A stretch of DNA of 64,000 nt, from the NCBI RefSeq assembly GCF_030815865.1, contig NZ_JAUSXI010000001.1, forward strand, positions 1,798,001-1,862,000, given 5' to 3'. Both the position numbers and the translations under genes were made by a program. The stretch comes from Arthrobacter globiformis (GTDB taxonomy: Bacteria > Actinomycetota > Actinomycetes > Actinomycetales > Micrococcaceae). Below the pieces are notes generated by a model that saw nothing but the letters and a program-made list of their open reading frames with translations, was not told where the DNA came from and did not search any database. This document shows, in pieces, positions 16,536 through 42,605 of the stretch (the stretch's first letter is position 1; every line of letters starts with the position of its first letter).

Positions 16536-16564
16536 TTGGACAAGCCGCCGCGCCCATGTAATAG
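16536..16564 (+). promoter_or_regulatory. Candidate promoter of the Ig/FN3-kinase-FtsK cluster
   Basis: TTGGAC (16536-16541), 17-base spacer, TAATAG (16559-16564). This is the best sigma-70-like match in the 237-base gap before the 2034-residue protein. It would leave a leader of about 115 bases containing a small hairpin, AGCCGC/GCGGCT, near 16642-16661. The -35 overlaps another inverted repeat (GGCGGCT...AGCCGCC). Confidence 0.5.
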
Positions 16565-16688
16565 TCGAGGCTCAGAATTGTTCCGGCGTCTCTACGGGGG
16601 AGTGGCGGAATGTCACCGGCCCGTGATGAACATCAGGGGCTAGCAAGCCGCGCTCAGGCGGCTGTGATTTCAGGGGAATAATAACGCT

Positions 16689-19600
16689 GTGTCAACTTTG
16701 TTCGGCAAGCTGGGGCTGAGGAACCGCCGCAACAAGATCGTCACCGGAACCGTCTTTTCCGCTGCTGCTGCGGCGCTGGTGGCCGGTGCCGTGATCTACC
16801 CGGGGTTCAAGACAACCGAGGTTGACCTTAACGACGGCGGCGTCTGGGTGGTCAGCAAGGCCCGGAACGCCGTCGGGCGCCTCAACTACCCCTCGCGGGT
16901 CCTTGACGGTGCGGTGACCCCGGCCAGCACCACGTTCGATGTCCTGCAGAACGCCGGAAAGGTATTCGTCGACGACGAATCCGGTTCCACCCTGAACCAG
17001 GTGTCCGCCGCCAACTTGAGGCTCGGCGGAGACAAACAGCTTCCCGGCTCAGCCCAGGTGAGCTTCGGCGCCGACACCATCTCGGTCACCGACCCTGCCG
17101 CCGGGAAGATGTGGGCGATGTCCCCGTCGACGGTCAACGCCTTCGATGAGGAGTCCAGTGAGCCCGCCGTGGCGGGTTCCCAAGGGCTGGTGTCCGCCGT
17201 CGGCTCCAATGACCGGATCTATTCGGCGGATCCGAAGACGGGGCAGGTGACAGTGACCACCGTGGACGCCGCCGGGGCAGCCACCGACACCGAGTCCAGC
17301 ACGTGGGACGGGATGAAGGGCGCCGGGGACCTCCAGATCGCCGTCGTGGGGGACCAGGCTGTGGTCCTGGATGCAGCCGCCGGAAAACTCTTCCTGCCCG
17401 GCGGACGCGAGGTGCCGCTGGCTGACGCGCGGGAGGCGAAGCTCCAGCAGTCGGGCCCGGCGTCCGACTCCGTAGCCGTGGCCACCGGCAAGGCACTCCT
17501 CAGGCAGCCGCTGAACGGTGCCGCCGCGAAGGCCGTGACCTTCGGCGGCCAGGGGGTACCCGCGGCGCCGGTGCAGCTGGGCGGCTGCGTTCACGCCGCA
17601 TGGTCCGGAGCCAACAAGTATGTCCGGGACTGCGCGAATAGCGCGGACAACAAGAACGTGGCCGTGCCCAAAGCCAGCGCCTCGCCCAGCTACGTTTTCC
17701 GGGTCAACCGGGACCTCGTGGTCCTGAACGACGTGAACTCGGGAAACGTGTGGCTGGTCAACCAGAACATGCAGCTGGTCAACAACTGGGACGACGTTGT
17801 CCCGCCCAAGAATCAGGCTGACGACCCTGACGAGGAGTCGGCAGACGACAACACCGTCAACGTCCTGCCCGACCGCACCAAGCCGAACCGTCCCCCCGAA
17901 ACGAAACCCGACGTCGTCGGCGTCCGGCCCGGCCGCACCACTGTCCTCAGCGTCCTCGACAACGACTCCGACCCCGACGGCGACGTCCTGACCGCCTCGC
18001 TCGGCGCAGAAGGGCCGCGGGCCGGCAGCATCGAAAGCATCTATGGCGGGTCCGCCTTCCAGATCACGGTGCCGGCCGATGCCGCGCCCGGAACCGAGAC
18101 CTTCGACTACACCGCGGCGGACGGCCGCGGGCTCTCGGCCGGCGGCAAGGTCAACCTGAGCGTCGTGGGCCCGGACGAGAACAGGCCCCCGGCCTTCAAA
18201 CGCGGAGACCCCACCACACTCCTCGTGGAGCAGGGCAAGACCGTCAGCCAGAACATCCTCACCGACTGGGCCGATCCCGACGGCGACGACCTCGTCCTGA
18301 TGTCAGCCACCGCCGACAATGAGCGGGACCAGGTCAAGGTCCGCCGCGACGGCCTGCTCACCTTCCAGGACTCCGGCGCCTCGGCCGGCAGGAAAAGCGT
18401 CACCGTGTCCGTCTGGGACGGCCGCGCCACCACCACAGGCAAGGTGGTGGTCAACGTCCAGCCGCCGGGCGCACTCGCTCCCGTGGTCAACGCCGACCAC
18501 GTCACCGCGGTGGTGGGCCAGGACCTGGTCATCGCGCCGCTAAAGAACGACGTCGACCCCAACGGCGGAGCGCTGCGCCTCGCCCAGGTGGAAGCCAGCG
18601 GAGCCGCAGAGCTGGGCCCGGTCACCGACGGCGGCACCTTCACCTTCCGAAGCCGCACGCCGGGGCCGGTGTACCTGACATACCTGGCCAGCAACGGACC
18701 GCAAAGCAGCCAGGGCCTCATTCGGGTTGATGTGGAATCCGGCAAGGACTCAGGAAATCCCGTCGCCGTCCACGACGTGGCTCTCCTTCCGGTGGGCGGC
18801 AGCGTCCTGCTGGACCCGCTGGCCAACGACTCGGACCCGTCCGGGGGCGTCCTGGTACTGCAGTCCGTTGCGGTGCCGGAGAACGCCACGGCGTCGGTAA
18901 GCGTGATCGACCACAGCGTCCTGCGGATCACCGACGTCGCTGGCACCAAGGACCCCTTCCTGTTCCGCTACACGATGTCCAACGGCAAATCCTCCGCCAC
19001 GGGAAGCGTCTCGGTGGTGCCCGTTCCCGCCCCGGCTGTGGTGGAGGCGCCGCAGCCCAAGCCTGACGAAGTCAACGTCCGCGTCAACGACGTAGTGACC
19101 ATCCCCGTCCTGGACAACGACACGCACCCGCAGGGCGAAAAGCTGACGGTTGATTCGGTCCTGCCGCAGGCCGTCCCGGCGGAGGACGGCAAGAGCTTCG
19201 TCTCCGAGAACACACTCCGGTTTATCGCCGGCAGCCAGCCCAAGACCGTGCGCGCCATCTACAACGCCGTTGACCCGCAGGGCCAGAAGAGCGCCGCCGC
19301 CGTCACCATCCACATCCTGCCGCTGGAGGGTGCCGAAAACTCCCGGCCGCAGCCCAAGAACCTGACCGCCCGGGTGGTGGCTGGCGGAACGGTGCGCATT
19401 CCGGTGCCGCTGGACGGCATTGACCCCGACGGCGACTCCGTCCAACTGACGGGCATCGACAGCACGCCCGGCATGGGCAGCGCGACGGCGGGCAGCAGCT
19501 TCATCGACTTCGTCGCGGCCGGCAACGGTGCCGGGACCGATACGTTCCGCTACAAGGTAGTCGACCGGCAGGGAGCCGTGAACACCGGCACCGTCACCGT

Positions 19601-22874: not shown

Positions 22875-23846
22875 ATGACAATGACTAGCGAGCAGGCCGC
22901 ATGGTTTGCAGGGACGTTCGAGAAGCTCGTCGCCAATGTGGGCCAGGCCGTCCTGGGCAAGGCGCACGTCATCCGCCTGACCTTCACCGCGATGCTTGCC
23001 GAGGGCCATGTCCTCTTTGAAGATGCACCCGGTACCGGCAAGACCTCGCTCGCCCGGGCCCTCGCCGCCACTGTCCAGGGGTCCAACAGCCGCATCCAGT
23101 TCACTCCGGACCTCCTGCCCTCCGACGTCACCGGCGTGACCATTTACGACCAGAAGACCCAGAAGTTCGAATTCCACAAGGGACCGATCTTCAGCAACAT
23201 CGTGCTCGCCGACGAAATCAACCGCGCCTCGCCCAAAACGCAGTCGGCTCTGCTGGAAGTCATGGAGGAGTCCCGGGTCACTGTGGACGGCACCACCTAC
23301 GAAGCCGGGCGGCCGTTCATGGTGCTGGCCACCCAGAACCCGATCGAGCAGGCCGGCACTTACCGGCTGCCCGAGGCCCAGCTGGACCGCTTCCTCCTTA
23401 AGACCTCCATCGGCTATCCGGACCACGCCTCCACCGTCCAGCTCCTGGGCGGATCCAACCTCAAGGACCGGTCCCGGGACCTGCAGCCCCTCATCACCAC
23501 GCAGGCCGTGGCTGACATGGCGGACCTTGCCGCCACCACGCACGTTGATACCGCGGTGCTGGAGTACATCTCCCGGCTGTGCGAGGAAACCCGCAACGCT
23601 CCGGAGAGCCGCCTGGGTGTGTCGGTCCGTGGCGCCCTCGCCATGGTCCGGGCGGCCAAGGTCTGGGCCGCGAGCCAGGGGCGCAACTTCGTCCTGCCGG
23701 ACGACATCAAGGACCTCGCCGCCGTCGTTTGGACCCACCGTTTCGTGATGGACCCAGAGGCAGAGTTCTCCGGAGCCACGGCGGAAGCCGTTCTGGGACG
23801 TGTCCTGGCTGATGTCGCAGCGCCGCAGCAGCGCGCCTCCGTCTAG
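22875..23846 (+). CDS. moxR: MoxR-type AAA+ ATPase
   Basis: Cytoplasmic AAA+ chaperone-like ATPase; MoxR proteins typically act with DUF58/VWA proteins to mature or insert complexes. 323 residues. Walker A EDAPGTGKTS (Lys56), Walker B ADEINRA (Asp113-Glu114), sensor 1 ATQNPIEQAGTYRLPEAQLDRF, and a C-terminal AAA lid. ATG 22875 is preceded by GAGGAAC. It follows the giant surface protein by 81 bases and is followed by DUF58 and transglutaminase-like genes. This trio is a widespread membrane module in bacteria. Confidence 0.94.
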   Translation: MTMTSEQAAWFAGTFEKLVANVGQAVLGKAHVIRLTFTAMLAEGHVLFEDAPGTGKTSLARALAATVQGSNSRIQFTPDLLPSDVTGVTIYDQKTQKFEFHKGPIFSNIVLADEINRASPKTQSALLEVMEESRVTVDGTTYEAGRPFMVLATQNPIEQAGTYRLPEAQLDRFLLKTSIGYPDHASTVQLLGGSNLKDRSRDLQPLITTQAVADMADLAATTHVDTAVLEYISRLCEETRNAPESRLGVSVRGALAMVRAAKVWAASQGRNFVLPDDIKDLAAVVWTHRFVMDPEAEFSGATAEAVLGRVLADVAAPQQRASV

Positions 23847-25173
23847 CGTGCAGCGCTTTAGGGTGCGGCTGTCTGGCGTGCGGCGGCCCGGGCTGCAGCT
23901 GCCCAAGGTGCAGCACCAAATCCGCCCGGCCAGGGTGTGGTCCGAGGTCAGCAGCATCGCGCGGCTCGCGCTGGGCCCCGCCTGGCGGATGGCCGACGGC
24001 GTGTGGGCCCGCCGCGTCCGGCCTGTCCTGTCCGTGGTCAGCGTCCTGGGCTGGTCCGTGCTGGCCGGTGCAATTCTCCTGTGGGCGGCCGGGAACGCCT
24101 ACGGCTGGCAGGAGGCCAAGGCTGCCGCCATTGCGGCGATGGTTCTCTTCGTCATCGCCGGTGGCTTCATCCTGGGCAGGTCCTCCTATGGGGTCCTGCT
24201 TGACCTCGCGCGGACCAGGGTGGCGGTGGGGGACAGCGCCGTGGGAAGCATTGCGGTGTCCAACACGTCCGCCCGGCCGCTCCTGCCGGCTGACCTCGAA
24301 CTGCCCGTCGGGGCAGCCACCGCCGTCTTCCACCTCCCGCGGATGAAGCCGCAACAGGTGCACGAGGATCTTTTCACCATCCCGACGGCGCGCAGGGCCG
24401 TCATCGTGGTGGGCCCTGTGCGTTCGGTCCGTGCGGATCCGCTGCACCTGCTCCGCCGGCAGGTGCTCTGGACGGAACCGCAGGACTTGTACGTGCATCC
24501 CCGGACCGTGGCTCTGGCCGGTTCCGCCGCGGGGTTCATCCGCGACCTGGAAGGCATGCCCACCACGGAGTTGTCCAGCGCTGATGTTTCCTTCCACGCC
24601 CTGCGCGACTACGTCCCGGGGGACGACCGGCGGCACATCCACTGGAAAACCACGGCCCGGACCAACAAGCTCATGGTCCGCCAGTTCGAGGAAACCCGCC
24701 GCGCCCACCTGGCCATTTCGCTGTCCATCAATACCGACGAATACGCCTCGGAAGAGGAGTTCGAGCTGGCTATCTCGGCAGCCGCGTCGATCGGACGCCA
24801 GGCCATCCGCGAGCAGCGCGAGCTGGACGTCCTGACCCAGACGGGTCCGCTGCGCTGCGAGACCGGCCGCAACATGCTGGACGACATGACCCGGGTCGTC
24901 GGCACCCCGCTGCGGAAGACCGCCGTCGACCTAGCCCGCACGCTTGCCGACACGGTACCCAACGCCTCCGTGGTTTTCTTCGTGGTGGGCAGCCAGGTGA
25001 CGCCCACCCAGCTGCGCTCGGCCGCCGCCTCGGTGCCCCCCGGCGTCCGAAGCCTCGCTGTGCTCGTCGACCTGGGCGCCGACCCTGCCCGCGCCAACAT
25101 CGGCGACCTCACAGTCCTCACCGTGGGTGACCTCTCCGACCTTCCCTCCGTCCTGCGAAAGGCTGCAGCATGA
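23812..25173 (+). CDS. DUF58 family membrane protein
   Basis: Partner protein of MoxR ATPases. About 453 residues from ATG 23812, which overlaps moxR by 35 bases. GTG at 23848, one base after the moxR stop, is a serious alternative and would remove 12 residues; neither has a strong ribosome site. Two adjacent membrane helices (about residues 72-125), a beta domain, then the family signature LRDYVPGDDRRHIHWKTTAR, followed by a VWA-like C-terminal half. Probably couples the ATPase to the membrane protein encoded next. The end overlaps the next start by 4 bases. Confidence 0.88.
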   Translation: MSQRRSSAPPSSVQRFRVRLSGVRRPGLQLPKVQHQIRPARVWSEVSSIARLALGPAWRMADGVWARRVRPVLSVVSVLGWSVLAGAILLWAAGNAYGWQEAKAAAIAAMVLFVIAGGFILGRSSYGVLLDLARTRVAVGDSAVGSIAVSNTSARPLLPADLELPVGAATAVFHLPRMKPQQVHEDLFTIPTARRAVIVVGPVRSVRADPLHLLRRQVLWTEPQDLYVHPRTVALAGSAAGFIRDLEGMPTTELSSADVSFHALRDYVPGDDRRHIHWKTTARTNKLMVRQFEETRRAHLAISLSINTDEYASEEEFELAISAAASIGRQAIREQRELDVLTQTGPLRCETGRNMLDDMTRVVGTPLRKTAVDLARTLADTVPNASVVFFVVGSQVTPTQLRSAAASVPPGVRSLAVLVDLGADPARANIGDLTVLTVGDLSDLPSVLRKAAA

Positions 25174-27593
25174 GTGAGGCCACAGGTCTCCGCCCCCGCC
25201 GTTCAAACCGGACCGGCCTCCCGGTCACGCCGGCCGTTCAGTCCGCCTTCGCCGACGGCCGGCCGCTGTGGCATTTTGTGCTCGACTGCGCTGCCCTCAC
25301 CGTTCTGCTCGGGCTGGGTGTCCTCGGGTTCAGCCTCAGCTTCGGCGGCGACCCGTATTATCTGATTGCCGGTTTTGGCGGGACTATCCTGGGCCTGGCC
25401 ATCGCTGCCTGCAACGCCCATTTCCGGCTGGGGCTGGTGATCACCACGGCTGCGGCCTTTGGCGGTTACCTAGTGCTGGGGACAGTCCTCGCCGTTCCTG
25501 ATGCCGCGCTGGCGGGATTCCTCCCCAGCCTGGAATCCCTGCGGACGCTGTTGCTCGGCGTCGTCTTCTCGTGGAAGGACATGCTGACCGTCGGAGTGCC
25601 CGTGGGCACCGCTGGCGGGGTGCTGATCGTTCCGTTCCTGAGCTCACTCATCACGGCCGTGGCGGCCGGTGTCCTGACCTGGCGGATCCGGAGCCCTTAC
25701 TGGCCGCTGCTGCCGGTCCTCGTCCTGTTTGTCACGGGCATCGCCTTCAGCACCAACGCCGGGTTCCTGACCGTGCAAAGGGGCATCGCGCTGACGGTGG
25801 TGGGTATCGCCTGGGCTACTTTCCGGCGGGAAGCCCTGCGCCAGCGCGACACCCGCAAGGTCTCGGTGAACCCTCCCCAGTACGACGCCGGCACCGCCGG
25901 GAAGGCACGCATGCGCCGCCTGGCGGCTGGAGCCGCGGTCCTGGCGGCAACGGTGGGAATTACCGCGGCCGTGTCGCCGCTCATCGCCGCCGGTGACGAG
26001 CGGCGCGTCCTCCGCAACGTCGTCGTTCCACCCTTTGATCCCAAGGACTACGTTACGCCGCTGGCGAGCTTCCGAAACTTCGTCAAGGACAAGAAGGACG
26101 ACGCCCTGTTCACGGTCAAGGGACTGCCGAAGGACGCCCGGGTCCGGCTCGGGGCACTCGATTCCTTCAACGGCACCAACTACACGATGGATCCGAACGG
26201 CTCCGGCAGCTTCAGCAAGGTCGGTGATGCGAAATCGATCAACACGCTTGCCGACTCCACGGACACGGTCCCGACGAATGACTACAGCCTGGCCATCACC
26301 ATAGATGACTACCAGGGCTACTTCGTTCCTGGCGGTCGGAAGACCACCGGACTCAGCTTCGGCCAGGGCTCGTCCGGCGCTGCTTCAGGGCTGTACTTCA
26401 ACTCCGGAACCGACACCGCGGTGACCACCCAGGGCCTGTCCCAGGGTGACTCCTACACTGTCCAGGTGTCGGACCCGGTGAAGCTGGAGCACGGGCAGCT
26501 GACGCAATACGATTTCGCCAGGATCAGCCTGCCTGACACCAGCGACGTGCCGCCGGTGGTGGGCGCCCAGGCCATCGACCTGGCCGCAGACGCCCCCACC
26601 GCTGTGGACCAGGTCCGGCAGATCGAGGCCCATTTCCAGAAGAAGGGGGCCTTCAGCAACGGGCTCATTGCCGACGGGCAGCTTCCCAGCGTCTCCGGGC
26701 ACGGTGCGGGGCGCATCCGCGACCTGCTGACCGCCAAGCAGATGCTGGGCGACGATGAGCAGTATGCCGTGGCGATGTCCCTGATGCTGCGGCACCTGGG
26801 CATTCCCTCGCGCGTGGTCATGGGGTTCTACCCCGATCCTAAGAGCCCGGAGAACGGAGCCGGCGAAATCAAGATCATGGGCAAGGACGTCCACGCCTGG
26901 GTGGAGGTGGCGTTCGACCGGGTGGGCTGGGTGGCCTTCGACCCCACACCGCCCAAGGACAACATTCCCATCCCGCCCGACCCGGAAAACAAGTCCAAGC
27001 CAAAGCCCCAGGTCCTGCAGCCGCCGCCACCGCCGCAGGAACCCGCCGACCTGCCGCCGGACTCCTCTCCCGACGCGCTCGACGCCGACGAGAAGAAGAA
27101 CAATCCCTGGCTTCTGTGGGGTCCCATCCTCACGGCCATCGGCATCGCCATGATTCCCATAGGCATCCTCGCCCTGCCGCTGCTGCTCATCGCCCTGCTG
27201 AAGTCCCGGCGCCGGAAGGCCCGCTTTACCGGCGGCAATCCGGCCCAGCGCGTCGGCGGCGGCTGGAACGAGGTCCTCAGCCTGGCAACGGACATGGGCG
27301 CCGCCGTGGACAGCCGTGCAACCAGGCGGGAAACCGCGGCGGTAGTTGCCGAGGCGTTCCCCGCCACCGGCGCCACCACCACCGTGCTGGCGCACCGGGC
27401 TGACGCCTCCATTTTCGGGGCGGGCCAGCCGAGTGAGGATGAGGTCCGGGAGTATTGGAACGTGGTGGATGGCTCGCTCAAGGAGATGACCGGGACGGTC
27501 GGCTTCTGGCGGCGCCAGCGGGCGCGGTTCTCGCCCCGGTCGCTGCTGGCCGAGGCCCGCACCGCCCTGGCCGCGCGGGGGTTCCGGCGGTGA
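25170..27593 (+). CDS. TgpA-like transglutaminase-fold membrane protein lacking the catalytic Cys
   Basis: 807 residues. N-terminal block of about six membrane helices (about 35-240), a large extracytoplasmic region with a transglutaminase-like core, a Pro-rich linker (PQVLQPPPPPQEP), one more helix (about 650-675) and a cytoplasmic tail. In active enzymes the core reads G-x-C-E-Q-[FY]. Here it is GDDEQYA, with Asp529 where the nucleophile Cys is expected. The His (DVHAWVEV, His575) and Asp (AFDPTP, Asp591) are kept. So this is probably a pseudoenzyme: a binding or scaffold role is inferred. ATG 25170 overlaps the DUF58 stop (ATGA). Confidence 0.88.
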   Translation: MSEATGLRPRRSNRTGLPVTPAVQSAFADGRPLWHFVLDCAALTVLLGLGVLGFSLSFGGDPYYLIAGFGGTILGLAIAACNAHFRLGLVITTAAAFGGYLVLGTVLAVPDAALAGFLPSLESLRTLLLGVVFSWKDMLTVGVPVGTAGGVLIVPFLSSLITAVAAGVLTWRIRSPYWPLLPVLVLFVTGIAFSTNAGFLTVQRGIALTVVGIAWATFRREALRQRDTRKVSVNPPQYDAGTAGKARMRRLAAGAAVLAATVGITAAVSPLIAAGDERRVLRNVVVPPFDPKDYVTPLASFRNFVKDKKDDALFTVKGLPKDARVRLGALDSFNGTNYTMDPNGSGSFSKVGDAKSINTLADSTDTVPTNDYSLAITIDDYQGYFVPGGRKTTGLSFGQGSSGAASGLYFNSGTDTAVTTQGLSQGDSYTVQVSDPVKLEHGQLTQYDFARISLPDTSDVPPVVGAQAIDLAADAPTAVDQVRQIEAHFQKKGAFSNGLIADGQLPSVSGHGAGRIRDLLTAKQMLGDDEQYAVAMSLMLRHLGIPSRVVMGFYPDPKSPENGAGEIKIMGKDVHAWVEVAFDRVGWVAFDPTPPKDNIPIPPDPENKSKPKPQVLQPPPPPQEPADLPPDSSPDALDADEKKNNPWLLWGPILTAIGIAMIPIGILALPLLLIALLKSRRRKARFTGGNPAQRVGGGWNEVLSLATDMGAAVDSRATRRETAAVVAEAFPATGATTTVLAHRADASIFGAGQPSEDEVREYWNVVDGSLKEMTGTVGFWRRQRARFSPRSLLAEARTALAARGFRR

Positions 27594-28987
27594 ACGGTTC
27601 GCCTGTCATCGGTGGGGGACCTGCGGCTGCCGGGGGACCTGTAGCCGCCGGGGGAAGCGGGCCGTGCCCGCGCTGCGGGCAGCCTGTCCGCGCCGGGGCT
27701 AGCTTTTGCGGTGCGTGCGGGACGCCCCTGCCTAACCGGGGACCCCGGCTCGATCGGGGAGCCACGCGCAATCCGGGAGTCCCGCCCGACCTGGGCGGGA
27801 GGCAAGCGGCTCGGATTCCCGGTAGCATCCCGGTAGGGCTGGGGGAAGGAACGGATATGTCAGGCACGCTCACGCTGGTTCCAGCGGCGCCGGGCAAGCG
27901 TCTCGGCGCCGCCGTCCTCGACTGGCTGGCCCCGGTGGCCATCCTGACGGTCCTGCTGTCCTTTGGGTTCGCTGGCATCACCAGCACGCGGAGCGCCGGG
28001 CTCATCATCTACGACACAAGCCTGCTGGCCATCCTGGCGGGCGTCGGCGCCGGACTGGCGCTGGTCTACGCGTTCGCCGTCGCAAGTGTCGAGGGCCGTT
28101 CCGGCAACACCATCGGCAACCAGTTCATGGGCATCCGCAGTGCTGACAAGGACGGTTACGCCCCTGGCCTCGGTGCTGTGTTCCTGCGGGGCATCGTGAC
28201 CGGAGCCGGCATCCTGCTGGCCGTCCTTGCCGCAGTTCTGGTGGCTGTCTTCAGGTGGTTCGACGCCGCCCTGCTCATCCTGGGGCCGTTGCTGCTCCTT
28301 GGGACGGCGTGGGCTGTGGTGGTGGTGCTCTCCAGCGCCTGGGACCGGAATGGCAGGCTCCGCGGATGGCATGACCGCGCGGCCAAAACCCTCGTGTTCG
28401 ACGTCGTTCGGGGCCGCAACCCCGTGGCTACCGGCGGCATTGAAGGCCCGTACAGTTTCGCGCCCCTGGACCTGCCCCCGGTGCAGCAGGTGGCCTCCCC
28501 GGTTGCCTCCCGCACCCCGGTTGCTTCCAACACCACCGTCGAGCCGGCACCGCTTGCAGCCCCGGACGCCACCGGTCATCCAGTCAACGCCGTTCACCCG
28601 GATGACGCCATGGACCGCACCCAGGTGCGCGCCGGGGCGCGCCAGGACGCCCCCGAGGCGGTGCTGAGAATAAGGCTCGACGACGGCCGCGACTTCCGCC
28701 TGGAGCGGACCGTCCTGATCGGCCGGAACCCTGCCCCCGCTGCTGGAGAATCGCAGGCCCAGTTGTTGCCGGTCCCGGACCCGGGCAGGACCATTTCCAA
28801 GACCCACCTCCACCTGCTCACGGACGGCGCCGGCGTCTGGATAACCGACCGCCACTCGACCAACGGCAGCGCCGTCACCACACCCGACGGCATGCGCACG
28901 GCGTTGCAGCCGGGCGTACCCGCATTTGTCAGCCCCGGAACCACAGTTCACTTCGGGGACCGCACCTTCAACGTAGGACACGCATGA
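27590..28987 (+). CDS. Zinc-ribbon, RDD membrane domain and FHA domain protein
   Basis: 465 residues. A double-CxxC zinc ribbon (CPRCGQ ... CGACG) lies near residues 25-45. An RDD domain with about four hydrophobic helices (about 98-280) starts with PGKRLGAAVLDWL. Then come a linker and a C-terminal FHA domain (about 360-460), with phosphothreonine-pocket motifs VLIGRNP, SKTHLHL and DRHSTNGS. The FHA domain should read phosphothreonine, presumably made by the kinase encoded 3 kb downstream. GTG start overlaps the previous stop by 4 bases; the end overlaps the phosphatase start in the same way. Confidence 0.9.
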   Translation: MNGSPVIGGGPAAAGGPVAAGGSGPCPRCGQPVRAGASFCGACGTPLPNRGPRLDRGATRNPGVPPDLGGRQAARIPGSIPVGLGEGTDMSGTLTLVPAAPGKRLGAAVLDWLAPVAILTVLLSFGFAGITSTRSAGLIIYDTSLLAILAGVGAGLALVYAFAVASVEGRSGNTIGNQFMGIRSADKDGYAPGLGAVFLRGIVTGAGILLAVLAAVLVAVFRWFDAALLILGPLLLLGTAWAVVVVLSSAWDRNGRLRGWHDRAAKTLVFDVVRGRNPVATGGIEGPYSFAPLDLPPVQQVASPVASRTPVASNTTVEPAPLAAPDATGHPVNAVHPDDAMDRTQVRAGARQDAPEAVLRIRLDDGRDFRLERTVLIGRNPAPAAGESQAQLLPVPDPGRTISKTHLHLLTDGAGVWITDRHSTNGSAVTTPDGMRTALQPGVPAFVSPGTTVHFGDRTFNVGHA

Positions 28988-29862
28988 ATTCACAGCAGGC
29001 GGCCGGAACCTCAGGGACCGGCAGCGAGCCCGGCCTCAAGCTGAGCTATGGCTACGGAACGGACCGTGGCCTTCGCCGCGAGCTCAATGAGGACTCCTAC
29101 ATTGCCTCCGATCCTGTGTTCGCCGTCGCAGACGGCATGGGCGGCCATGAAGCCGGCGAGGTGGCCAGCGGCATGTGCGTGCGGGCACTGGCACAGCTGC
29201 CACAGCTGGCCACGGGGGAACGGACAGCCACCGCGGGAGTGGTGCAGCAGTACCTGGCCATTGCCGACGAATCGATCCGTTCCGCCACCGGCTCGCGGGC
29301 AGGAACCACGCTCAGCGGTGTGGTGGTGGTGGAACAGATGGGTGTTCCCTACTGGCTGGTCATGAACATCGGGGATTCCCGGACATACCGGCTGAACCAG
29401 GGCCGGCTCAGCCAAGTCAGTGTGGACCACTCCGAGGTCCAGGAGCTCGTCGAGAGCGGCGAGATCACCGCCGAGGAGGCTGCAGTGCATCCCCGCCGGC
29501 ACGTCGTGACGCGCGCGCTGGGCGCGGGTGCCGAGACCGAGGCCGACTACTGGCTCCTGCCCATAGAGGAAGGCGACCGGGTGATGGTGTGCTCCGACGG
29601 GCTCAACGGGGAACTGACGGACGGACAGATGCTGGACGTCCTCAGCACCGTCGAGGACCCGCAGGAGGCGGTGGACGCCTTGATCCAGGCAGCATTGCGG
29701 CGCGGAGGCCGGGACAACATCACGGTGATCGTCGTCGATGCCAGGAACGTGCTCAACGATGCCGGTGTGGCCACGACCGCACCCCGGACTGCCGCCGACG
29801 CGGAAGAGGAGGACACGCTGCCGCGTGCCGGAAGCGAGGACGCTGTCAATGGCCGCAGCTAG
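28984..29862 (+). CDS. PP2C-family Ser/Thr protein phosphatase
   Basis: Metal-dependent cytoplasmic phosphatase, probable counterpart of the kinase at 31694. 292 residues. All PP2C motifs are present: RELNEDSY, ADGMGGHEAGEVAS, NIGDSRTYRL, VCSDGLNGELTD and GGRDNITVIVVD, so it should be active. No membrane helix, unlike PstP-type phosphatases. A short acidic tail follows the domain. ATG 28984 overlaps the upstream stop by 4 bases, and its own end overlaps the next gene by 14 bases. Confidence 0.95.
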   Translation: MNSQQAAGTSGTGSEPGLKLSYGYGTDRGLRRELNEDSYIASDPVFAVADGMGGHEAGEVASGMCVRALAQLPQLATGERTATAGVVQQYLAIADESIRSATGSRAGTTLSGVVVVEQMGVPYWLVMNIGDSRTYRLNQGRLSQVSVDHSEVQELVESGEITAEEAAVHPRRHVVTRALGAGAETEADYWLLPIEEGDRVMVCSDGLNGELTDGQMLDVLSTVEDPQEAVDALIQAALRRGGRDNITVIVVDARNVLNDAGVATTAPRTAADAEEEDTLPRAGSEDAVNGRS

Positions 29863-31697
29863 CTATGTCCCCGGCGGATGGGTAGGCCTCATCCGCTCGA
29901 GAACTGCGGTGATCCTCGACCCCGCCACTCCGGCCCCGCTGGTCAGCACCGTGTGGGATTTGCTGGAAAAAAGCCCGGATGCAGCCGAGGTTTTGCACGC
30001 CGTGACGGGAGGGTTCGGTGCACCGCTGTCCGCCAGCCCGTGGTTCGGGATCATCGGTTTCAGCGACTCGCTGCGGGTATTCCTGCGCGGCGACATCGAC
30101 CTGACGGTCCAGCTTCCGTCGGGTCCCGTGAACCTCGACGGCCGGAACGTCACCACCTGGACCGAGCGGTGGCTGGACGCCCCCGAGTGGTTCAGCGTTT
30201 CGGCGCCGGCAGGGGCGGCATCCCGGCTGTCAGAGCTGCCTGTAGTGGAAGGGGCCGTCCTCCTGCAGTCACTGCGGGTCAGTCTTGCCGGATCATTCGG
30301 TGCCCTGCCGGACGGTGCCCTGCCTGCCGGCACCCATACTGCCGGCACGCAGACTGCCGCCGCCCTTTCCGCCGAGCCGGAGGCTGAGGCCGCCTACTCT
30401 GAAGTGTCGGCTGAGACCATGGTGGGCCTCACCGAGGATGCTTCCGTCGAGGCGGAGGAACCGGAGGCTGCCGTGCCTGCGAACGAGGCGCCGGCCCAAG
30501 GGGGATGAGCACGAGCCCGCCGAGCTCACCGGTTCTGCCTCCGAATTCACCAGCTCGTACGACCATCTTTGGGACAAGACCGTGGTGCGTAGCATTGAGG
30601 ACGCTGCCGTGCGGACCGGCGAGGAGGACGACGGCGGCACTCCGTCCACCGGGGAGACGGCGGTTCCGGACATGGCAGTTCCGGAGACGGTGGACCAGGA
30701 GACAGCAGATCAGGAAACAGGGGCTCAGCAGGCGCCAGTTCCGGAGACGGTGGACCAGGAGACAGCAGACCAGGAAACAAAGGATCAGGACGCCGAATCT
30801 CCGGAAGCCCGCCAGCCAGTCATTGCCCGTGCAGCAGCGGCCCCGGCGCCCCCGTCAGCCCCTTCACAGGCAGGACTGATCGACTCGGTGCCGTGGGCGA
30901 CCAGAGGAGATCGTGCCCCGGGACCGGAGGCGCCGCCGCCGTTCTCAGCACCGGAGGTCCCGCCGTCGTTCTCAGCACCGGAGGTCCCGCCGTCGTTCGC
31001 CGGGCCCCAGGTCCCGCCCTCATTCTCAGCGTCCGACGTCCCGTCGTCGCCGTTCGCCGGCCCCCAGGTCCCGCCGTCGTTCATCTCCATGCCCGCCTCC
31101 CGTGAGGCGGCGGAAGGGGACCACGACGGTCAGACCATCCTCAAGAGCGATCTCCCCGCCTCCGGAGCGCAGCAGGCAGGACAGGGACCGGAAGCTGGCC
31201 AGGGCACAGAACCCGGGCAGAGCGGGGTGGCAGGCAACGGCCCACTCGTGCTCGCCCGGGTGTGCCCCGGCGGCCATGCGAACCCTCCCACGAGCGGCCA
31301 ATGCTTCACCTGCGGGATGCAGTTGCCGGACGTGGCCGTGCAGGTGCCGCGCCCAAGGCTCGGCCGCCTGCGGCTGTCCACGGGAGAGCTGATCGACCTG
31401 GACGAATCCATTGTGATCGGGCGGCAGCCGTCCGTGTCGCGGGTTCAGGGCGGCACCATGCCCCGGCTGGTCCAGGTGGCCAGCCCCGGCGGCGACATTT
31501 CGAGGTCGCACGTGGAGGTCCGGCTGGAGGGCTGGCACGTGATGCTGTGTGACCTGAAAGCTACCAACGGCACCGTGCTGGCCCGTGAAGGGCAGCCGCC
31601 GCGGCGCCTTGCCCAGAATGAAATGGCCATTGTCTTGGACGGCGACATCGCAGAACTCGGTGATGATGTTTCCTTGCGCTTTGAGGAGATCCTGTGA
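29849..31697 (+). CDS. Second zinc-ribbon/FHA protein, split by a one-base frameshift
   Basis: As written, the frame from ATG 29849 stops at 30508 after 219 residues (N-terminal globular domain starting MAAASYVPGGWVGLIRSRT). The reading continues in another frame with no start codon of its own until 31697. Dropping one G from the five-G run 30500-30504 joins them as APAQGDEHEPAELTG, giving about 615 residues. Layout: unknown N-terminal domain, acidic/Pro-rich repeats, a zinc-ribbon-like CPGGHAN ... CFTCG, and a C-terminal FHA domain (IVIGRQPSVS, DISRSHVEV, DLKATNGT). The FHA half overlaps the kinase start by 4 bases. Real frameshift or homopolymer error; co-translation with the neighbours argues the gene is meant to be whole. 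Confidence 0.8.
30676..30780 (+). repeat. Two-copy direct repeat with 60-base period inside the FHA gene
   Basis: Copies begin at 30676 and 30736. About 45 bases are nearly identical, encoding VPETVDQETADQET twice. The whole-codon period lets copy number change without breaking the frame. Confidence 0.8.
30940..31090 (+). repeat. Pro/Ser-rich minisatellite in the FHA gene
   Basis: Repeated units encoding variants of FSAPEVPPS and FAGPQVPPS form a flexible linker before the zinc-ribbon/FHA part. Confidence 0.7.
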
Positions 31698-33346
31698 GTT
31701 CCAAGCGGCCGGCGGCCCCACCGCCCCGCATCCCCGGTTTCAGCTATGTGAGCCTGCTCGGCTCGGGTGGCTTCTCTGACGTCTACCTCTACGAGCAGGA
31801 CCGGCCGCGCCGCAAGGTTGCGGTTAAAGTGCTGCTGTCCGGCCTCAAGACGGAGGGCGCGCGGCGCCGGTTTGAGTCCGAGGCCAACCTGATGGCCCAG
31901 CTGTCCTCGCACCCCTTCATCGTCACCATCTTCGAGGCCGAGGTGACTGGGGACGGGCATTCGTACCTCGCCATGGAGTACTGCTCGCGGCCCAGCCTGG
32001 ACGTCCGGTACCGCCGGCAGCGCTTCAGCGTCGACGAGGTCCTGGCCGTCGGCATCCAGGTGGCCTCCGCCGTCGAGACAGCGCACCGGGCCGGCATTGC
32101 CCACCGGGACATCAAGCCTGCCAACATCCTGGTCACGGACTACAACCGCCCGGCACTCACCGACTTCGGCATCTCCGGCACGCTGGCCGGCGACGTTGAT
32201 GAGGATGCGGGGATGTCCATCCCGTGGTCCCCGCCGGAACAGTTCCGCGACGGCAACGTCGACGGCGTGATGGTGGACGTATGGGCCCTCGGCGCCACGC
32301 TGTACACACTGCTTGCCGGACGGTCGCCCTTCGTGCTGCCAGGGGCCGACAACTCCCAGCGCGAGCTCATTTCGCGCATCACCAGCATGCCCGTCCCGCG
32401 ACTGGGCCGCGCCGACGTGCCGGAATCCCTTGAACTGGCCCTGGCCACGGCAATGGCCAAGTCGCCGGCCTCACGCTATTCGTCGGCTCACGCTTTCGCC
32501 CTTGCGCTGCAGCGGATCCAGGCCGAGCTCAACCTGTCCGTTACGCCGTTCGAGGTGCTCGAGGAACGCCATCAGGAGGACGTGGACCTGGACGACGGCG
32601 TCGAGGAGACGCGCGTCCGCAATGTCGCCTCCATCGACCCGGACCGGACCGGAAGCGCCCCGACGTTCCCGGCCCGCACCAAGCCGCTGGACGGGGGAGG
32701 TGCTGCCCCGGGCACCCCGCCGGGGCCTGCTGCACCAACGCCTGGGCCGGTCCGCTTGGCGCCCCAAGCCACCTTTTCGACGGCGGGTACCGCGCCGGCC
32801 CGGGAGCCTTCGGGGGTGGTTACGCCTGCGGACGACTGGGCAGGTGCCACGGTCCTGCGAAGGAACCAGCCCAAGGCTGCGGAGGACGATGCAGCCGGCC
32901 AGGCGGGGGACCAGCCGGCCGATCATGGGAAGCGCAACCTGTGGCTCGCCATCTCCGGCGGAACGCTCCTGGTGCTGGCGGTCATCGTGGGCATTGTGGT
33001 GGCATCGGCTGCGCCGCAGCCGCAGGCCCGGCCCACCGAAACGGTCAGCAAGCCGCCCGCCGACGCCATCGACGACGGGTCCGTGCCCGACGTCGCCAAG
33101 CTGGCGGGCAGCGCAGGCGCCCAGGGAAAGGTCCGCTTCACCTGGACCAACCCGCGGCCGAAGCCGGGGGACATCTACAAATGGCGGATCAAAACGGTCA
33201 AAGGCGGCGGAAGCTATCTGTCGACGTCGGCAACCCGGGTGGAGGTCACCGCGAATCCGGCGGAACCCACCTGCCTCCAGGTGATCCTTGTCCGCAGCGA
33301 CGGAACCGCATCACCGGCGGGCGAGGATTCCATCGCCTGCCTGTAG
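31694..33346 (+). CDS. Transmembrane Ser/Thr protein kinase with FN3-like outer domain
   Basis: Hanks-type kinase, 550 residues. Gly loop LGSGGFSDVYL (21-31), ATP-anchoring Lys45 (VAVKVL), catalytic HRDIKPAN (Asp139), DFG (157-159), APE-like SPPEQF; predicted active. A Pro/Ala-rich juxtamembrane linker, one membrane helix (about 417-440) and a C-terminal extracellular domain of about 90 residues (KVRFTWTNP... with two Cys near the end) follow. The outer domain looks like a fibronectin III fold, not the PASTA repeats of PknB. Presumably phosphorylates the FHA partners around it. The GTG start overlaps the FHA gene by 4 bases. Resembles Pkb2 of the bifidobacterial PFNA cluster. Confidence 0.93.
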   Translation: MSSKRPAAPPPRIPGFSYVSLLGSGGFSDVYLYEQDRPRRKVAVKVLLSGLKTEGARRRFESEANLMAQLSSHPFIVTIFEAEVTGDGHSYLAMEYCSRPSLDVRYRRQRFSVDEVLAVGIQVASAVETAHRAGIAHRDIKPANILVTDYNRPALTDFGISGTLAGDVDEDAGMSIPWSPPEQFRDGNVDGVMVDVWALGATLYTLLAGRSPFVLPGADNSQRELISRITSMPVPRLGRADVPESLELALATAMAKSPASRYSSAHAFALALQRIQAELNLSVTPFEVLEERHQEDVDLDDGVEETRVRNVASIDPDRTGSAPTFPARTKPLDGGGAAPGTPPGPAAPTPGPVRLAPQATFSTAGTAPAREPSGVVTPADDWAGATVLRRNQPKAAEDDAAGQAGDQPADHGKRNLWLAISGGTLLVLAVIVGIVVASAAPQPQARPTETVSKPPADAIDDGSVPDVAKLAGSAGAQGKVRFTWTNPRPKPGDIYKWRIKTVKGGGSYLSTSATRVEVTANPAEPTCLQVILVRSDGTASPAGEDSIACL

Positions 33347-33436
33347 CCCGGCAGCTTTAACACCCGGCAGCGGGAGACGCGTAAGGCGTCAACAGCTCCC
33401 CAGCAACAAACAGCACCGACGACAAGACAGGGAAAC

Positions 33437-34141
33437 ATGGGAGATCTGGCCATAGATTTCTGCGGCGAGTGGTACGAGCCGACCGATGAGGACATCTTCA
33501 GCATCGGCCGCGAGGGCGACCTGGAAGTGGACGACAACCCTTACCTGCACCGACGCTTCCTACAGATCGCCAGGTATGACGGCATCTGGTGGCTCAGCAA
33601 TGTGGGCAGCCGCCTCTCCGCCACGGTGGCCGACGGATCCGGCGGCATGCAGGCCTGGCTCTCGCCCGGCGCCCGGCTGCCGCTCGTCTTCAGCCACACC
33701 AGCATCATCTTCACGGCCGGACCCACTACCTATGAATTCGCCGTCCACCTGAAAACGCCGTCGTTCCGGCAAGAAACCAGCAGCGAAACCAGCGGCGGTG
33801 ACACCACCATCGGCCCGGTGGTCTTCACGGACTCGCAGAAAGCCCTCATCGTGGCGCTTGCCGAACCCATGCTCCGGCGCGAAGGCACCGGATTCAGCGC
33901 CATTCCCTCCTCCGCGGAGGCGGCCCGGACCCTGGGCTGGGCCCTCACCCGGTTCAACCGGAAGCTCGACAACGTGTGCGACAAACTGGACCGTGCCGGA
34001 GTGGGGGGCCTCCGGGGAGGCGGCGGGAAGCTGGCCACCAACCGCCGGGCACGCCTCGTCGAGCATGCAGTCACCTCGCACCTGGTCACCGCCAGTGACC
34101 TTCACCTCCTGGAAAAGATGCGCGGGGACAGCGAAGCATGA
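33437..34141 (+). CDS. FHA-like plus winged-helix protein
   Basis: 234 residues, no assigned family. The N-terminal half (about 1-115) is beta-rich and FHA-like (FSIGREGDLEVDDNPYLHRRFL, then a WWLSNVG core) but lacks the classic S-x-x-H and N-G residues in clear form. The C-terminal half (about 130-230) reads like a winged helix: SQKALIVALAEPMLRREG, then a helix-rich segment SSAEAARTLGWALTRFNRKL and a basic end. A DNA- or protein-binding adaptor is inferred. ATG 33437 has AGGGAAAC upstream; a 90-base gap separates it from the kinase, and its stop overlaps the ATPase start (ATGA). Confidence 0.75.
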   Translation: MGDLAIDFCGEWYEPTDEDIFSIGREGDLEVDDNPYLHRRFLQIARYDGIWWLSNVGSRLSATVADGSGGMQAWLSPGARLPLVFSHTSIIFTAGPTTYEFAVHLKTPSFRQETSSETSGGDTTIGPVVFTDSQKALIVALAEPMLRREGTGFSAIPSSAEAARTLGWALTRFNRKLDNVCDKLDRAGVGGLRGGGGKLATNRRARLVEHAVTSHLVTASDLHLLEKMRGDSEA

Positions 34142-37100: not shown

Positions 37101-38598
37101 GCTGCTGCCCAACCCACGCACCGATGAACGGCTCCTGCTGGGCGTTGCGGACGACCCCGCCCGCCAGGACCAGCCCACCGTCTTCTACGAACCGGACAGA
37201 GACGGCAACATGGCCATCTACGGCACGGGCGGCTCAGGCAAGTCCGCGGCCCTGCGGGGCATCGCCATCGCCGCTGCCGTCACCCCGCGCGGGGGCCCCG
37301 TCCACGTCTATGGAATCGACTGCGGCTCCGCCGGGCTCAAAATGCTCGAAGAACTTCCGCACGTGGGCGGGATCATCAACGGCGACGACGTGGAACGCGT
37401 GGGCAGGCTGCTGCGCTGGCTCAGCGACCTCGCCGAGGACCGGGCAGCCCGTTTCGCCGAGGTCCGCGCCTCCACCATCGGGGAGTACCGCAAGCTTGCC
37501 GGCCTGCCGGATGAAAAGCGCATCTTCGTGCTGGTCGACGGCATGTCGGCCTTCCGTGAGGCCTATGAGTACAGCAAGCTCTCCGGCCTCTGGGACCTCT
37601 TCCTGCAGCTGGCGACCGACGGCCGTCCCCTGGGCATCCACCTCGTTGTTACCGGCGACCGCCCCAACTCCGTCCCGGCGTCGTTGCTTGCCTCCATCCA
37701 GCGAAGGCTGGTACTCCGGCTGTCCGCCGAGGACGACTACCTGACCATGGACGTGCCAAAGGACGTCCTGGGCCAGGCCTCGCCTCCGGGCCGGGGGCTG
37801 CTGGGCGGCCACGAGGTGCAGCTCGCCGTCCTGGGCGGCAACTCCAACTTGGCGCTGCAGGCGCGCGAAGTCCACAAGCTCAGCGAGGCTATGCTCCGCC
37901 AGGGTGTGGAAAGGGCTCCGCGCATCGAGCGGCTGCCCGAGCAGATCGACCTGGACATCCTGCCTGCCGGGCTGCCGGATCTGCCCGTGGTCGGCGTGGA
38001 CGACGAAACGCTGCAGCCCGCCACACTCATGGCCAAGGGCCCGCTGCTGCTCGCCGGCCCACCCGGCTCCGGCCGGACCGTGGCCCTGGTGACCATGGCC
38101 TACGCGCTGCGCCGGTCCAACCCCGGCACCGAACTGGTTTACCTTGCCGCCAGGAAGTCCGCCGTGGCGTCCCTGCCGGTCTGGGATCGCTCGCTGGTGG
38201 GAGCCGACGACGTCGAGGAGGCGGTGGAAGCGCTCACGGACCACGCCTCGGCCAATCCGGGCAAGGTGGCCATCTTCATCGAGGGGCTCACGGAGTTTAC
38301 GGACACCCTGGCCGAGTCCGGCATCGGAAGGCTCGTGGCGGCGTCCATCAAGGCCGACCAGTGGGTGGTCGGGGAATCCGAAACGTCCACCTGGTCATCG
38401 GCCTGGTCGCTCGCGCAGCCGTTCAAGTCGGGCAGGAGGGGGCTGCTGATCAACCCGGGCGACATCGACGGCGACAACCTCCTCAATACGTCACTCGGAC
38501 GGGTCGGCGCCGGCTTCATTCCGGGCCGCGGCTACATCGTCGGGCGGGGCAAGGTGCGCAAGCTCCAGATCGCGCTGCCGCCGGAAAACCGACAGTAG
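34138..38598 (+). CDS. FHA-containing FtsK/SpoIIIE ATPase of EssC/EccC type
   Basis: 1486 residues. Ubiquitin-like (YukD-like) N-terminus (about 1-96), FHA domain (about 112-205: SYIGRDRGVDVRL, SKRHARI, NSANGL), two adjacent membrane helices (about 249-287), then three RecA-like ATPase modules. Module 1 has canonical GTTGAGKS (about 703-710) with Walker B VIVVDEFAAL. Module 2 has GTGGSGKS (about 1029-1036) with VLVDGMSAF. Module 3 has GPPGSGRT (about 1307), with Lys replaced by Arg. FHA-TM-three ATPase is the plan of type VII secretion motors (EssC with two FHA, EccC with none), so a protein-export motor is inferred over a DNA pump. No gamma DNA-reading domain is seen. Confidence 0.92.
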   Translation: MRIRLTLRRDPAEAKDLAVTVDGRATVADIATELWTADPARRQQPAPPNLSLRIDEAFVAGGMRGIVLDRADNLLESGLRPGSVVSLTQVSDQFGNPNDAGPAADRGPAAATLRIVSGPDVGREFSLPSGTSYIGRDRGVDVRLTDPLTSKRHARITVGESIEIVDTNSANGLQMDGLPVTRATLNSSDTVTLGDTELTVVPLARSGAAAPTSPLVDFNRSPRVIPRFAPAKRVPPAGPKRQDHHPFPYIMLIAPLMMGAVLFAVTQSLVSILFMLMMPLFIVGHYVDQKLQSQRERKEQLKQFRAAMAAFRQDTTELQRVERAVRLQEAPSVSDTVGSIYKLGPLLWTHRPEHSGFLTLRFGLGTVPSRIPFEEPNSAETETEYRREIEGCLDQFRLIEGVPVVSQLRTAGSFGLAGPRGLVDDVARGVVLQLVGLHSPAEVAVAAITSARSRERWNWLQWLPHVGSSHSPVSGDHLAAGSAGGTSLLSRLEDLVELREAALRSQGPAHRPGIPDETADVPPPVLPSVLVIVEDDAPVDRGRLTRLVERGPDTGVHVLWVAAGVESLPAACRDFMAVDGEHGNTTGQVRLGRHTYPVSCESLDAELAGQLARMLSPVVDAGKPVEDDSNLPRAVSYATLIGKDFLENPQAVAERWQENNSVRSTAVANRKDNGSLRALVGSKGVEPLHLDLKNEGPHALVGGTTGAGKSEFLQSWVMGMATAYSPDRVSFLFVDYKGGAAFADCVHLPHTVGLVTDLSPHLVRRALTSLRAELHYREHLLNRKKAKDLLSLQREADPEAPPYLVIVVDEFAALATEVPEFVDGVVDVAARGRSLGLHLILATQRPAGVIKESLRANTNLRVALRMADEDDATDILGVPDAAYFDPSIPGRAAAKTGPGRIQGFQTGYAGGWTTERPQGPQIDIVEMAFGSGPAWETPAPDTAVQDEPAGPNDIARMTANVIAAADLLAIEPPRKPWLNELATTYDFSLLPNPRTDERLLLGVADDPARQDQPTVFYEPDRDGNMAIYGTGGSGKSAALRGIAIAAAVTPRGGPVHVYGIDCGSAGLKMLEELPHVGGIINGDDVERVGRLLRWLSDLAEDRAARFAEVRASTIGEYRKLAGLPDEKRIFVLVDGMSAFREAYEYSKLSGLWDLFLQLATDGRPLGIHLVVTGDRPNSVPASLLASIQRRLVLRLSAEDDYLTMDVPKDVLGQASPPGRGLLGGHEVQLAVLGGNSNLALQAREVHKLSEAMLRQGVERAPRIERLPEQIDLDILPAGLPDLPVVGVDDETLQPATLMAKGPLLLAGPPGSGRTVALVTMAYALRRSNPGTELVYLAARKSAVASLPVWDRSLVGADDVEEAVEALTDHASANPGKVAIFIEGLTEFTDTLAESGIGRLVAASIKADQWVVGESETSTWSSAWSLAQPFKSGRRGLLINPGDIDGDNLLNTSLGRVGAGFIPGRGYIVGRGKVRKLQIALPPENRQ

Positions 38599-38650
38599 TC
38601 AATTTGGCGCGCCGGGCGGGACTGTAGGAAGATACCCGGGACAAGACTCG

Positions 38651-38669
38651 GCGCGGGAGGGTCCCGCGC
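38651..38669 (+). terminator. Hairpin between the ATPase gene and the anchored Pro-rich protein gene
   Basis: Perfect stem GCGCGGGA-GGG-TCCCGCGC. No T-run follows. Could be a terminator or processing/attenuation hairpin ahead of the next gene. Confidence 0.45.
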
Positions 38670-38686
38670 GGCTGCAAAGGTACTCC

Positions 38687-39346
38687 ATGATCCGTCTTCC
38701 TCTTCTGCGCGGCGCGCTCGTGCCCGGAACTGCCGCTGCCATGCTGGCCTTCACGGTTGTGACCGGCGCCGCCGGAGCTGCGCAGGCGGCCTGCCTGCCG
38801 GAGGGGCCGTGTTCGGAGTCACCCACGCCTGTCGCTCCGCCGTCGTCCGGTTCCCCGGCGCCGCCCACGACGCCAACCGCCTCCGCGCCGGCGCCGCCGC
38901 CGGCCCAGAAAGCGCCGGCACCTTCGCCGGCTCCGGCTCCTGCACAGCCGGTGCGACCAGTAGCGCCTGCGGCGCCTGCGGCGCCGGTGCGGCCGGTGGC
39001 GCCCGAGACCCGCATGGCTCCTGCACCGGTCATACCGGCCGCCGCTCCCGCCGTCGTTCCGGCAGCGAATAACGGGATTGTGGCCGCGGTCCCCGCTGCA
39101 ACACGGCCGGTGACCACCGCCTCCGCCAGCCCGGACCCGTCGTCGTCCGTGTTTTCTGCCGAGTCCAGCTGGACCAAACCGATCGCCACCCCCGCCGCCA
39201 GCCAAGCCGCCGCCGTCGTAGTTGCGGACAAGGAGTCCGGCCTCGGCATTTTCGGCCTGTTCGCCGTCATGGGCGGCGTCCTCCTGGTGGGTCTGGGCGG
39301 GCTGGCCTTCGCCCTGTGGAGCCGGAACCGCCCCGGTCACTGGTAG
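38687..39346 (+). CDS. Secreted Pro/Ala-rich protein with C-terminal membrane anchor
   Basis: 219 residues. Signal peptide (MIRLPLLRGALVPGTAAAML..., cleavage near AQA, residue 34), a short Cys-containing segment (ACLPEGPCSE), a long low-complexity Pro/Ala/Val region likely spanning the peptidoglycan, and a C-terminal helix (about 192-212) with a short basic cytoplasmic tail (WSRNRPGHW). No LPxTG motif. ATG 38687 follows AAAGG at proper spacing. It lies 88 bases after the ATPase and may be the last gene of the cluster, as a wall-spanning component or substrate; this is an inference from position. Confidence 0.75.
   Translation: MIRLPLLRGALVPGTAAAMLAFTVVTGAAGAAQAACLPEGPCSESPTPVAPPSSGSPAPPTTPTASAPAPPPAQKAPAPSPAPAPAQPVRPVAPAAPAAPVRPVAPETRMAPAPVIPAAAPAVVPAANNGIVAAVPAATRPVTTASASPDPSSSVFSAESSWTKPIATPAASQAAAVVVADKESGLGIFGLFAVMGGVLLVGLGGLAFALWSRNRPGHW

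Positions 39347-39393: not shown

Positions 39394-42605
<3,212 letters not shown>

Follow-up and report, generated by a model that had tools for sequence, protein, structure and literature searches.

Subtypes c to j of the type VII secretion system (T7SS) have been described by Garrett et al. 2024 (PMC11217815; this and the other papers are cited here from the parts available). The PFNA genes have so far been discussed as a bifidobacterial immune-sensing operon (PMC8430577). The mycobacterial moxR operon has been likened to PFNA in a paper whose available part names no link to type VII secretion (PMC12067865); the available part of a further paper (PMC7159879) has no bearing on the cluster considered here. 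This cluster lies on the + strand of a 64-kb stretch of the Arthrobacter globiformis genome (referred to as the window), where it spans positions 16689-39346 and joins PFNA genes to the gene of an EssC-like ATPase, the motor. We regard it as reasonably probable that the cluster encodes a type VII (Esx-type) machine of an undescribed branch alongside a PFNA module whose probable role is to control and scaffold it. A preceding sequence-only reading had taken the arrangement to be uncharacterised, which agrees with the open-access literature, where no paper joining ‘PFNA’ and ‘type VII secretion’ was found (subscription papers and preprints lay outside this scope).

On sequence grounds, the motor is a membrane-bound EccC/EssC-type ATPase that does not reach the curated subtype cut-offs of NCBIfam: it scores 525.6 bits with the EssC model TIGR03928 (cut-off 778.4) as well as 334.3 and 274.5 bits with the EccC models TIGR03924 and TIGR03925 (cut-offs 509.15 and 346.55), and it matches solved YukB/EccC chains by sequence profile. 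Its P-loops 1 and 2 are intact, and the phosphothreonine (pThr) motif of the FHA domain is intact in 16 out of 16 aligned motors. The search for homologues covered 196 genomes of the class and 297 of the order; the latter include 88 with a motor of at least 830 bits, a limit placed at a score gap (830.9 to 627.8). In a quick tree of 45 rows, the window motor sits within a clade of 23 rows (Shimodaira-Hasegawa-like approximate likelihood ratio test, 100), and outside this clade fall three motors from probable Bifidobacteriaceae along with 19 further ones. Named members of this clade, which apparently represents an undescribed branch of type VII secretion, belong to the Dermabacteraceae, Promicromonosporaceae, Microbacteriaceae, Propionibacteriaceae, Dietziaceae, Nocardiaceae, Mycobacteriaceae, Nocardioidaceae, Geodermatophilaceae, and Micromonosporaceae.

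The first ~90 residues of the motor may form a ubiquitin-like domain, as AlphaFold2 predicts a strand-strand-helix-strand-strand-strand topology, mostly with a predicted local distance difference test above 90. When a profile of this region was run against PDB sequences, a redesigned ubiquitin came out on top (E 0.006), and among the N-termini of 34 relatives Pfam recognised YukD in one (E 0.024) and TmoB in three, in addition to unrelated families. The N-terminal 92 or 104 residues of the window motor themselves had no match in Pfam, and two fold comparisons of the motor model returned match lists occupied by FHA. When 44 sequences were searched with the profile, weak matches (E≤1e-3) appeared at the N-termini of 17 out of 19 motors belonging to other types, and the three from probable Bifidobacteriaceae gave none.

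Evidence for a secretory function comes from the surroundings of the motor genes. In total, 90 motor loci including the window were read, 89 of them with at least 1 kb downstream and 83 with at least 11.9 kb upstream (the motor neighbourhoods of genomes G183 and G371 lie outside this set), next to a second, overlapping set of 80 named loci. All genome and locus counts are raw, with related genomes counted individually, and figures from the FN3 and WXG100 profile searches across genomes hold among the matches listed. A WXG100 gene is found within 2.5 kb downstream of the motor in 68 of the 89 loci, which makes type VII secretion the best reading of the motor. Searches with PF06013 independently agree with this placement among the matches listed, and the named set shows a WXG100 gene beside the motor in 44 of 70 loci. 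Within the family, motor-type WXG100 proteins occur in 12 of 12 motor genomes examined and in 0 of 14 motor-less ones, again among the matches listed.

The PFNA genes recur on the other side of the motor. Among the 83 loci with sufficient upstream sequence, 58 have the transglutaminase-like gene, 55 the kinase gene and 51 both, while a gene for an FHA protein with a helix-turn-helix-like (HTH) domain is present at 47. The corresponding numbers for the 66 named loci with 9 kb upstream are 57, 46 and 45, with neither gene in eight. All these locus counts, including those of WXG100 beside the motor, rely on local gene profiles built from the same loci on which they were counted, and those for DUF58, MoxR and FN3 are lower bounds, since the upstream stretches mostly measure ~12.9 kb. 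At the genome level, the N-terminal region of the giant FN3 protein finds matches in 165 of 297 genomes, i. e. in 79 of the 88 with the motor vs 86 of the 209 without, and FN3 and motor genes are at most 45 kb apart in 43 of the 67 genomes for which both positions are listed. Even motors outside the clade have MoxR, DUF58 and transglutaminase-like genes nearby in five of eleven loci (G162, G076, G137, G128, G142); kinase genes are likewise seen near these five motors. The gene order is largely kept from Arthrobacter to Dietzia (L254) and the Propionibacteriaceae (L201, L233) and partly in Nocardioides (L253), and this recurrence across taxa places the cluster beyond chance. Hence, the linkage of an FHA-bearing EssC-like motor to MoxR-DUF58-transglutaminase-kinase genes that the sequence-only reading had proposed is borne out by synteny, the motor gene standing with these genes more often than apart from them. 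As a separate observation, two loci from Mycobacterium and Mycolicibacter (L215, L217) combine this motor type with WXG100 genes and show no PFNA genes in 7.9 and 9.9 kb upstream, respectively.

Several observations weigh against a type VII machine with an integral PFNA module. Neither the kinase nor the transglutaminase-like gene lies beside the motor in 21 of the 83 loci, so that the PFNA module is not obligatory. The 86 FN3-bearing genomes without this motor, some of which have other EssC/EccC-like motors, indicate that PFNA can work without it, and in 24 of the 67 genomes FN3 and motor genes are not within 45 kb of each other, with 13 of these pairs on different contigs. As for secretion, no WXG100 gene exists within the 64 kb of the window. 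Moreover, profile A1, which was derived from motor-linked WXG100 proteins, is without a match at 1e-6 in 38 of the 88 motor genomes, many of which have another WXG100 type beside the motor, and it also matches 25 genomes outside the motor clade. The ubiquitin-like assignment, finally, stands on a predicted topology and weak profile matches. The loci without either gene, the frequency of FN3 without the motor and the separation of PFNA from a T7SSd-like locus in probable Bifidobacteriaceae (see below) would also fit two independent adjoining operons, one PFNA and one type VII, that are co-regulated at most, with the motor FHA domain reading the product of another kinase. We consider such a coincidence of neighbours unlikely, given that the order is kept over many families, that the FHA-HTH gene accompanies the motor at more than half of the loci and overlaps its gene by 4 bases in the window, that FN3 is distributed so unevenly between genomes with and without the motor, and that MoxR-DUF58-transglutaminase-like genes also adjoin motors of other types.

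The giant FN3 protein contains a ~390-residue N-terminal region without a Pfam match, followed by immunoglobulin (Ig)/cadherin-like repeats and three fn3 domains (Pfam: Big_9 in 10 stretches, fn3 in three). A signal anchor is predicted at residues ~18-38, while a C-terminal transmembrane segment was not seen in the sequence. Because of its own anchor and its presence in 86 of 209 motor-less genomes, a place in the envelope is likelier for this protein than a role as cargo. The sequence-only reading had assumed that the motor exports it, and an export or assembly of the giant FN3 protein by the motor under phosphorylation control would accord with the short distance between the two genes in 43 of 67 genomes and with the presence of FN3 in nearly all motor genomes. 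Yet the anchor, the motor-less genomes with FN3, four of which belong to the same family (G277, G406, G426, G446), and the finding that WXG100, the usual substrate class, is what follows the motor make this improbable, and the role of motor cargo was rejected for the FN3 protein. An open reading frame (ORF) of 419 residues in another genome (G157, L051/L052) comprises the anchor and the N-terminal region of an FN3 homologue without Ig repeats, which suggests that the N-terminal region is the conserved core. A second FN3 giant of 2020 residues, 48% identical at the N-terminus, was encountered at G000:C1:3181600 (L176:5574-11636), with no other cluster gene nearby in the 19.9 kb read. Two FN3 copies 6-8 kb apart occur in G264, G376, G343, G226 and G436, among the matches listed.

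In the window's genus, the probable type VII system is split across the chromosome. The WXG100 gene beside the motor is gone in seven of eight loci, i. e. the window and six others, which account for seven of the 21 negative loci of the first set; likewise, 12 of the 26 misses in the named set fall to the Arthrobacter group. The window genome encodes a short motor-type WXG100 protein at C1:173261-173521, 1.66 Mb from the cluster, with a heavy-metal-ATPase-like gene and an EamA-like transporter gene as neighbours by eye. It was found with profile A1, which overturned the view that this genome has no motor-type WXG100; with PF06013 alone, the genome shows an EsxA-like orphan gene at C1:1200384 and one weak match at C1:4144301, but nothing else. 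The relocated gene sits at one conserved place in all seven genomes of the genus that lack a neighbouring copy. In the remaining genome, G355, contigs C5 and C6 each carry an identical copy, one followed by the EamA-like transporter gene and the other by ligA, and the copy adjoining the motor may reflect an assembly join at a repeat. All eight genomes thus keep a short motor-type WXG100 (with a longer open frame of uncertain start in G329), and each also encodes one or more longer WXG-domain proteins. For the window genome, a candidate cargo is the 370-residue product encoded at C1:4144286, which has a WXG domain at its N-terminus and obtains 17.7 bits with PF06013, under the cut-off. At L009:7248-8360, a 370-residue WXG-domain protein is followed at 8370-9023 by a 217-residue protein without a Pfam match, a possible effector-immunity-like pair. 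The place of WXG100 in most relatives is occupied in the window by the gene of a Pro/Ala-rich protein, whose profile matches at this place in eight of the 80 named loci, all from Arthrobacter, Pseudarthrobacter or Paenarthrobacter. That the motor of this genus is a leftover or re-used for other cargo, with the Pro/Ala-rich membrane protein replacing WXG100, would explain these eight loci and the missing neighbours but is very hard to reconcile with the retained short and longer WXG proteins, the conserved new location, the motor identity of 80-97% within the genus and the intact P-loops.

The kinase possesses HRD and DFG motifs and a transmembrane segment and reaches 176 of 450 bits with the PknB_PASTA model; by eye, the motifs of active kinases and active PP2C are present. 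Canonical FHA domains were recognised by eye in three proteins, namely the motor, the RDD-FHA protein (20.1 bits, just under the Pfam cut-off of 20.7) and the Zn-FHA protein. For the FHA-HTH protein, an FHA fold of residues 1-107 is backed by a model and a fold comparison, its pThr-binding residues being partly degenerate by eye; a PDB sequence search gave no match. The transglutaminase-like protein has no catalytic Cys in any of 58 sequences, nor in any of the 62 in another set that overlaps the first and includes three probable Bifidobacteriaceae. The G-x-C position, which we take to be the catalytic column, holds D, E, S, Q or A, and since D sits there in the window, the protein is probably a pseudo-enzyme. 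The designation of the PFNA ‘tgm’ product as an active transglutaminase or cysteine protease is hence probably wrong.

Judging from the genome context, the presumably hexameric motor would export WXG100 dimers as well as proteins that carry a WXG domain at the N-terminus. Phosphorylation gating of the motor is plausible: the transmembrane kinase may sense an outside cue and phosphorylate a Thr residue on a partner, whereupon the FHA domains of the motor, the RDD-FHA and the Zn-FHA protein could read the mark and trigger assembly or opening, before PP2C resets it, as the intact motifs suggest. The N-terminally anchored Ig/FN3 giant would most likely be a wall-spanning envelope component with a role akin to EsaA/TsdI, while MoxR, DUF58 and the pseudo-transglutaminase may serve as an assembly or adaptor set.

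If correct, type VII secretion, possibly under phosphorylation control, would extend to Arthrobacter, Brachybacterium, Microbacterium, Cellulosimicrobium, Nocardioides and others, and the PFNA genes, studied mainly in gut bifidobacteria, would gain a concrete function. More tentatively, and with somewhat less than even confidence, PFNA in many other actinobacteria could serve an undescribed type VII subtype as its arm for phospho-signalling and the envelope. This subtype would be gated by kinase and PP2C, and its motor would carry a fused ubiquitin-like domain and a pThr-reading FHA domain, with FN3, MoxR, DUF58 and the pseudo-transglutaminase building the wall-spanning part. Bifidobacteria and other FN3-bearing genomes without the clade motor would then harbor an arm that works without this motor.

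The genes of the cluster are compiled in Table 1; a cyclase-like gene (15237-16451) lies upstream and ligA (39475-41769) downstream. All domains named in the sequence-only reading were found by Pfam or NCBIfam, the FHA domain of the RDD protein as the marginal case given above. Its cluster start at 16536 has to be corrected, as the first ORF begins at 16689, and of its eleven same-strand genes mostly overlapping by 4 bases, the common strand stands but the overlaps number five (25170/25173, 27590/27593, 28984/28987, 31694/31697, 34138/34141), the remaining junctions being gaps or longer overlaps. What spans 29846-31697 in the window is one uninterrupted ORF in each of seven same-genus relatives (G002, G355, G329, G213, G343, G264, G376), and the FHA-like ORF was therefore rejected as a gene of its own; in the window, a frame change around 30.5 kb, which may be a true mutation or an assembly error, breaks this gene in two, and the ATGA overlap at 30505 does not lie in the correct reading frame. 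The cluster thus counts 11 genes with the split gene taken as one and 12 as two. Elsewhere in the window, three successive ORFs (653, 112 and 528 residues) without Pfam match occupy 8629-12456, upstream of a biotin ligase gene.

Table 1. Genes of the cluster in the Arthrobacter globiformis window.
Product	Position	Strand	Basis and remarks
Giant FN3/Big_9 surface protein, 2034 residues	16689..22793	+	Pfam; anchor from sequence
MoxR-type AAA+ ATPase, 323 residues	22875..23846	+	Pfam AAA_3 211 bits, AAA_lid_2
DUF58 protein	23800..25173	+	Pfam DUF58 50.1 bits; start uncertain, ORF taken from GTG 23800
Transglutaminase-like protein, several transmembrane segments, D in place of catalytic Cys	25170..27593	+	Pfam Transglut_core
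Zinc ribbon-RDD membrane domain-FHA protein	27590..28987	+	Pfam RDD, zinc ribbon
PP2C Ser/Thr phosphatase	28984..29862	+	Pfam PP2C_2; Stp1_PP2C 207.7 bits, cut-off 230
Zn-ribbon/FHA gene, 5' part	29846..30508	+	No Pfam match (longer ORF from 29738 searched)
Zn-ribbon/FHA gene, 3' part	30509..31697	+	Cys motif zinc-ribbon-like by eye; C-terminal FHA, Pfam 21.4 bits
Transmembrane Ser/Thr kinase, short extracellular C-terminal domain	31694..33346	+	Pfam Pkinase 135.6 bits
FHA-fold protein, 234 residues, C-terminal helical (HTH-like) domain	33437..34141	+	
EssC-like motor, 1486 residues	34138..38598	+	FHA, two transmembrane helices (by eye), three FtsK/SpoIIIE-type ATPase domains
Pro/Ala-rich protein, signal sequence and C-terminal transmembrane segment	38687..39346	+	By eye; no Pfam match

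Among the known systems, the EccC proteins of T7SSa/ESX share the EccC-type ATPase domains with the window motor, which scores under both the EccCa and the EccCb cut-off; we know of no FHA domain in EccC. EssC of the bacillotal T7SSb, whose N-terminus has two FHA domains, shares with the window motor the FHA domain, the two transmembrane helices and the three ATPase domains, but the window motor stays under the TIGR03928 cut-off and its first N-terminal domain is predicted to be ubiquitin-like. The FHA domains of T7SSb are without a pThr site (PMC11217815).

The nearest described subtype is T7SSd, which is likewise actinobacterial and combines an EssC-like motor with a pThr-competent FHA domain, a Ser/Thr kinase, WXG100 and a large Ig-like envelope protein (PMC11217815). 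Membership in T7SSd was rejected, since the window motor falls into another clade than the three motors of probable Bifidobacteriaceae that stand in for TsdC. The assignment of their family (f39) to the Bifidobacteriaceae is probable because of the named motor relatives (Bifidobacterium sp. LC6 59% identical, Alloscardovia 51-52%, but Actinomyces 56%) and the PFNA gene order. Two genomes of this family contain a locus encoding WXG100, a kinase, a small transmembrane protein, a 1797-residue Ig protein and the motor, which fits the five T7SSd components and shows no FN3, MoxR, DUF58 or transglutaminase-like match in 32 kb, and both genomes have an FN3 match elsewhere. Four other genomes of the family have a kinase-FN3-MoxR-DUF58 run, three of them with the transglutaminase-like gene, and no motor was found in the 19.9 kb read. 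The Ig protein of the T7SSd-like locus is not matched by the FN3 N-terminal profile. The window kinase has a counterpart in TsdD, but against the cluster kinase profile the kinase of the T7SSd-like locus reaches 120 bits, compared with 354-412 bits for the PFNA kinases of the same family. TsdI has a signal peptide and a C-terminal transmembrane segment, whereas the Ig/FN3 giant is N-terminally anchored, and to TsdH with its single transmembrane segment and short cytoplasmic part only the Pro/Ala-rich protein comes near, by description (PMC11217815). MoxR, DUF58, the transglutaminase-like protein, PP2C, RDD-FHA and FHA-HTH are outside the five T7SSd components as given in the available part of that paper (PMC11217815). 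A ubiquitin-like component was noted there as missing from T7SSd (PMC11217815); in the motors studied here this domain may be fused to the motor, although it is not seen in the three T7SSd-like ones.

The window has its kinase, FN3, MoxR, DUF58 and transglutaminase-like genes in common with the PFNA cluster of Bifidobacterium, and its PP2C and FHA genes as well (PMC8430577). The likeness to PFNA pointed out in the sequence-only reading thus holds for all five core genes, whose profiles also pick up the loci of probable Bifidobacteriaceae. The order differs, as the kinase comes first in pkb2-fn3-aaa-duf58-tgm (PMC8430577) but follows the other four genes in the window. Whereas the term ‘ftsk’ does not occur in the available part of the PFNA review (PMC8430577), the PFNA genes of the window cluster have a type VII motor attached.

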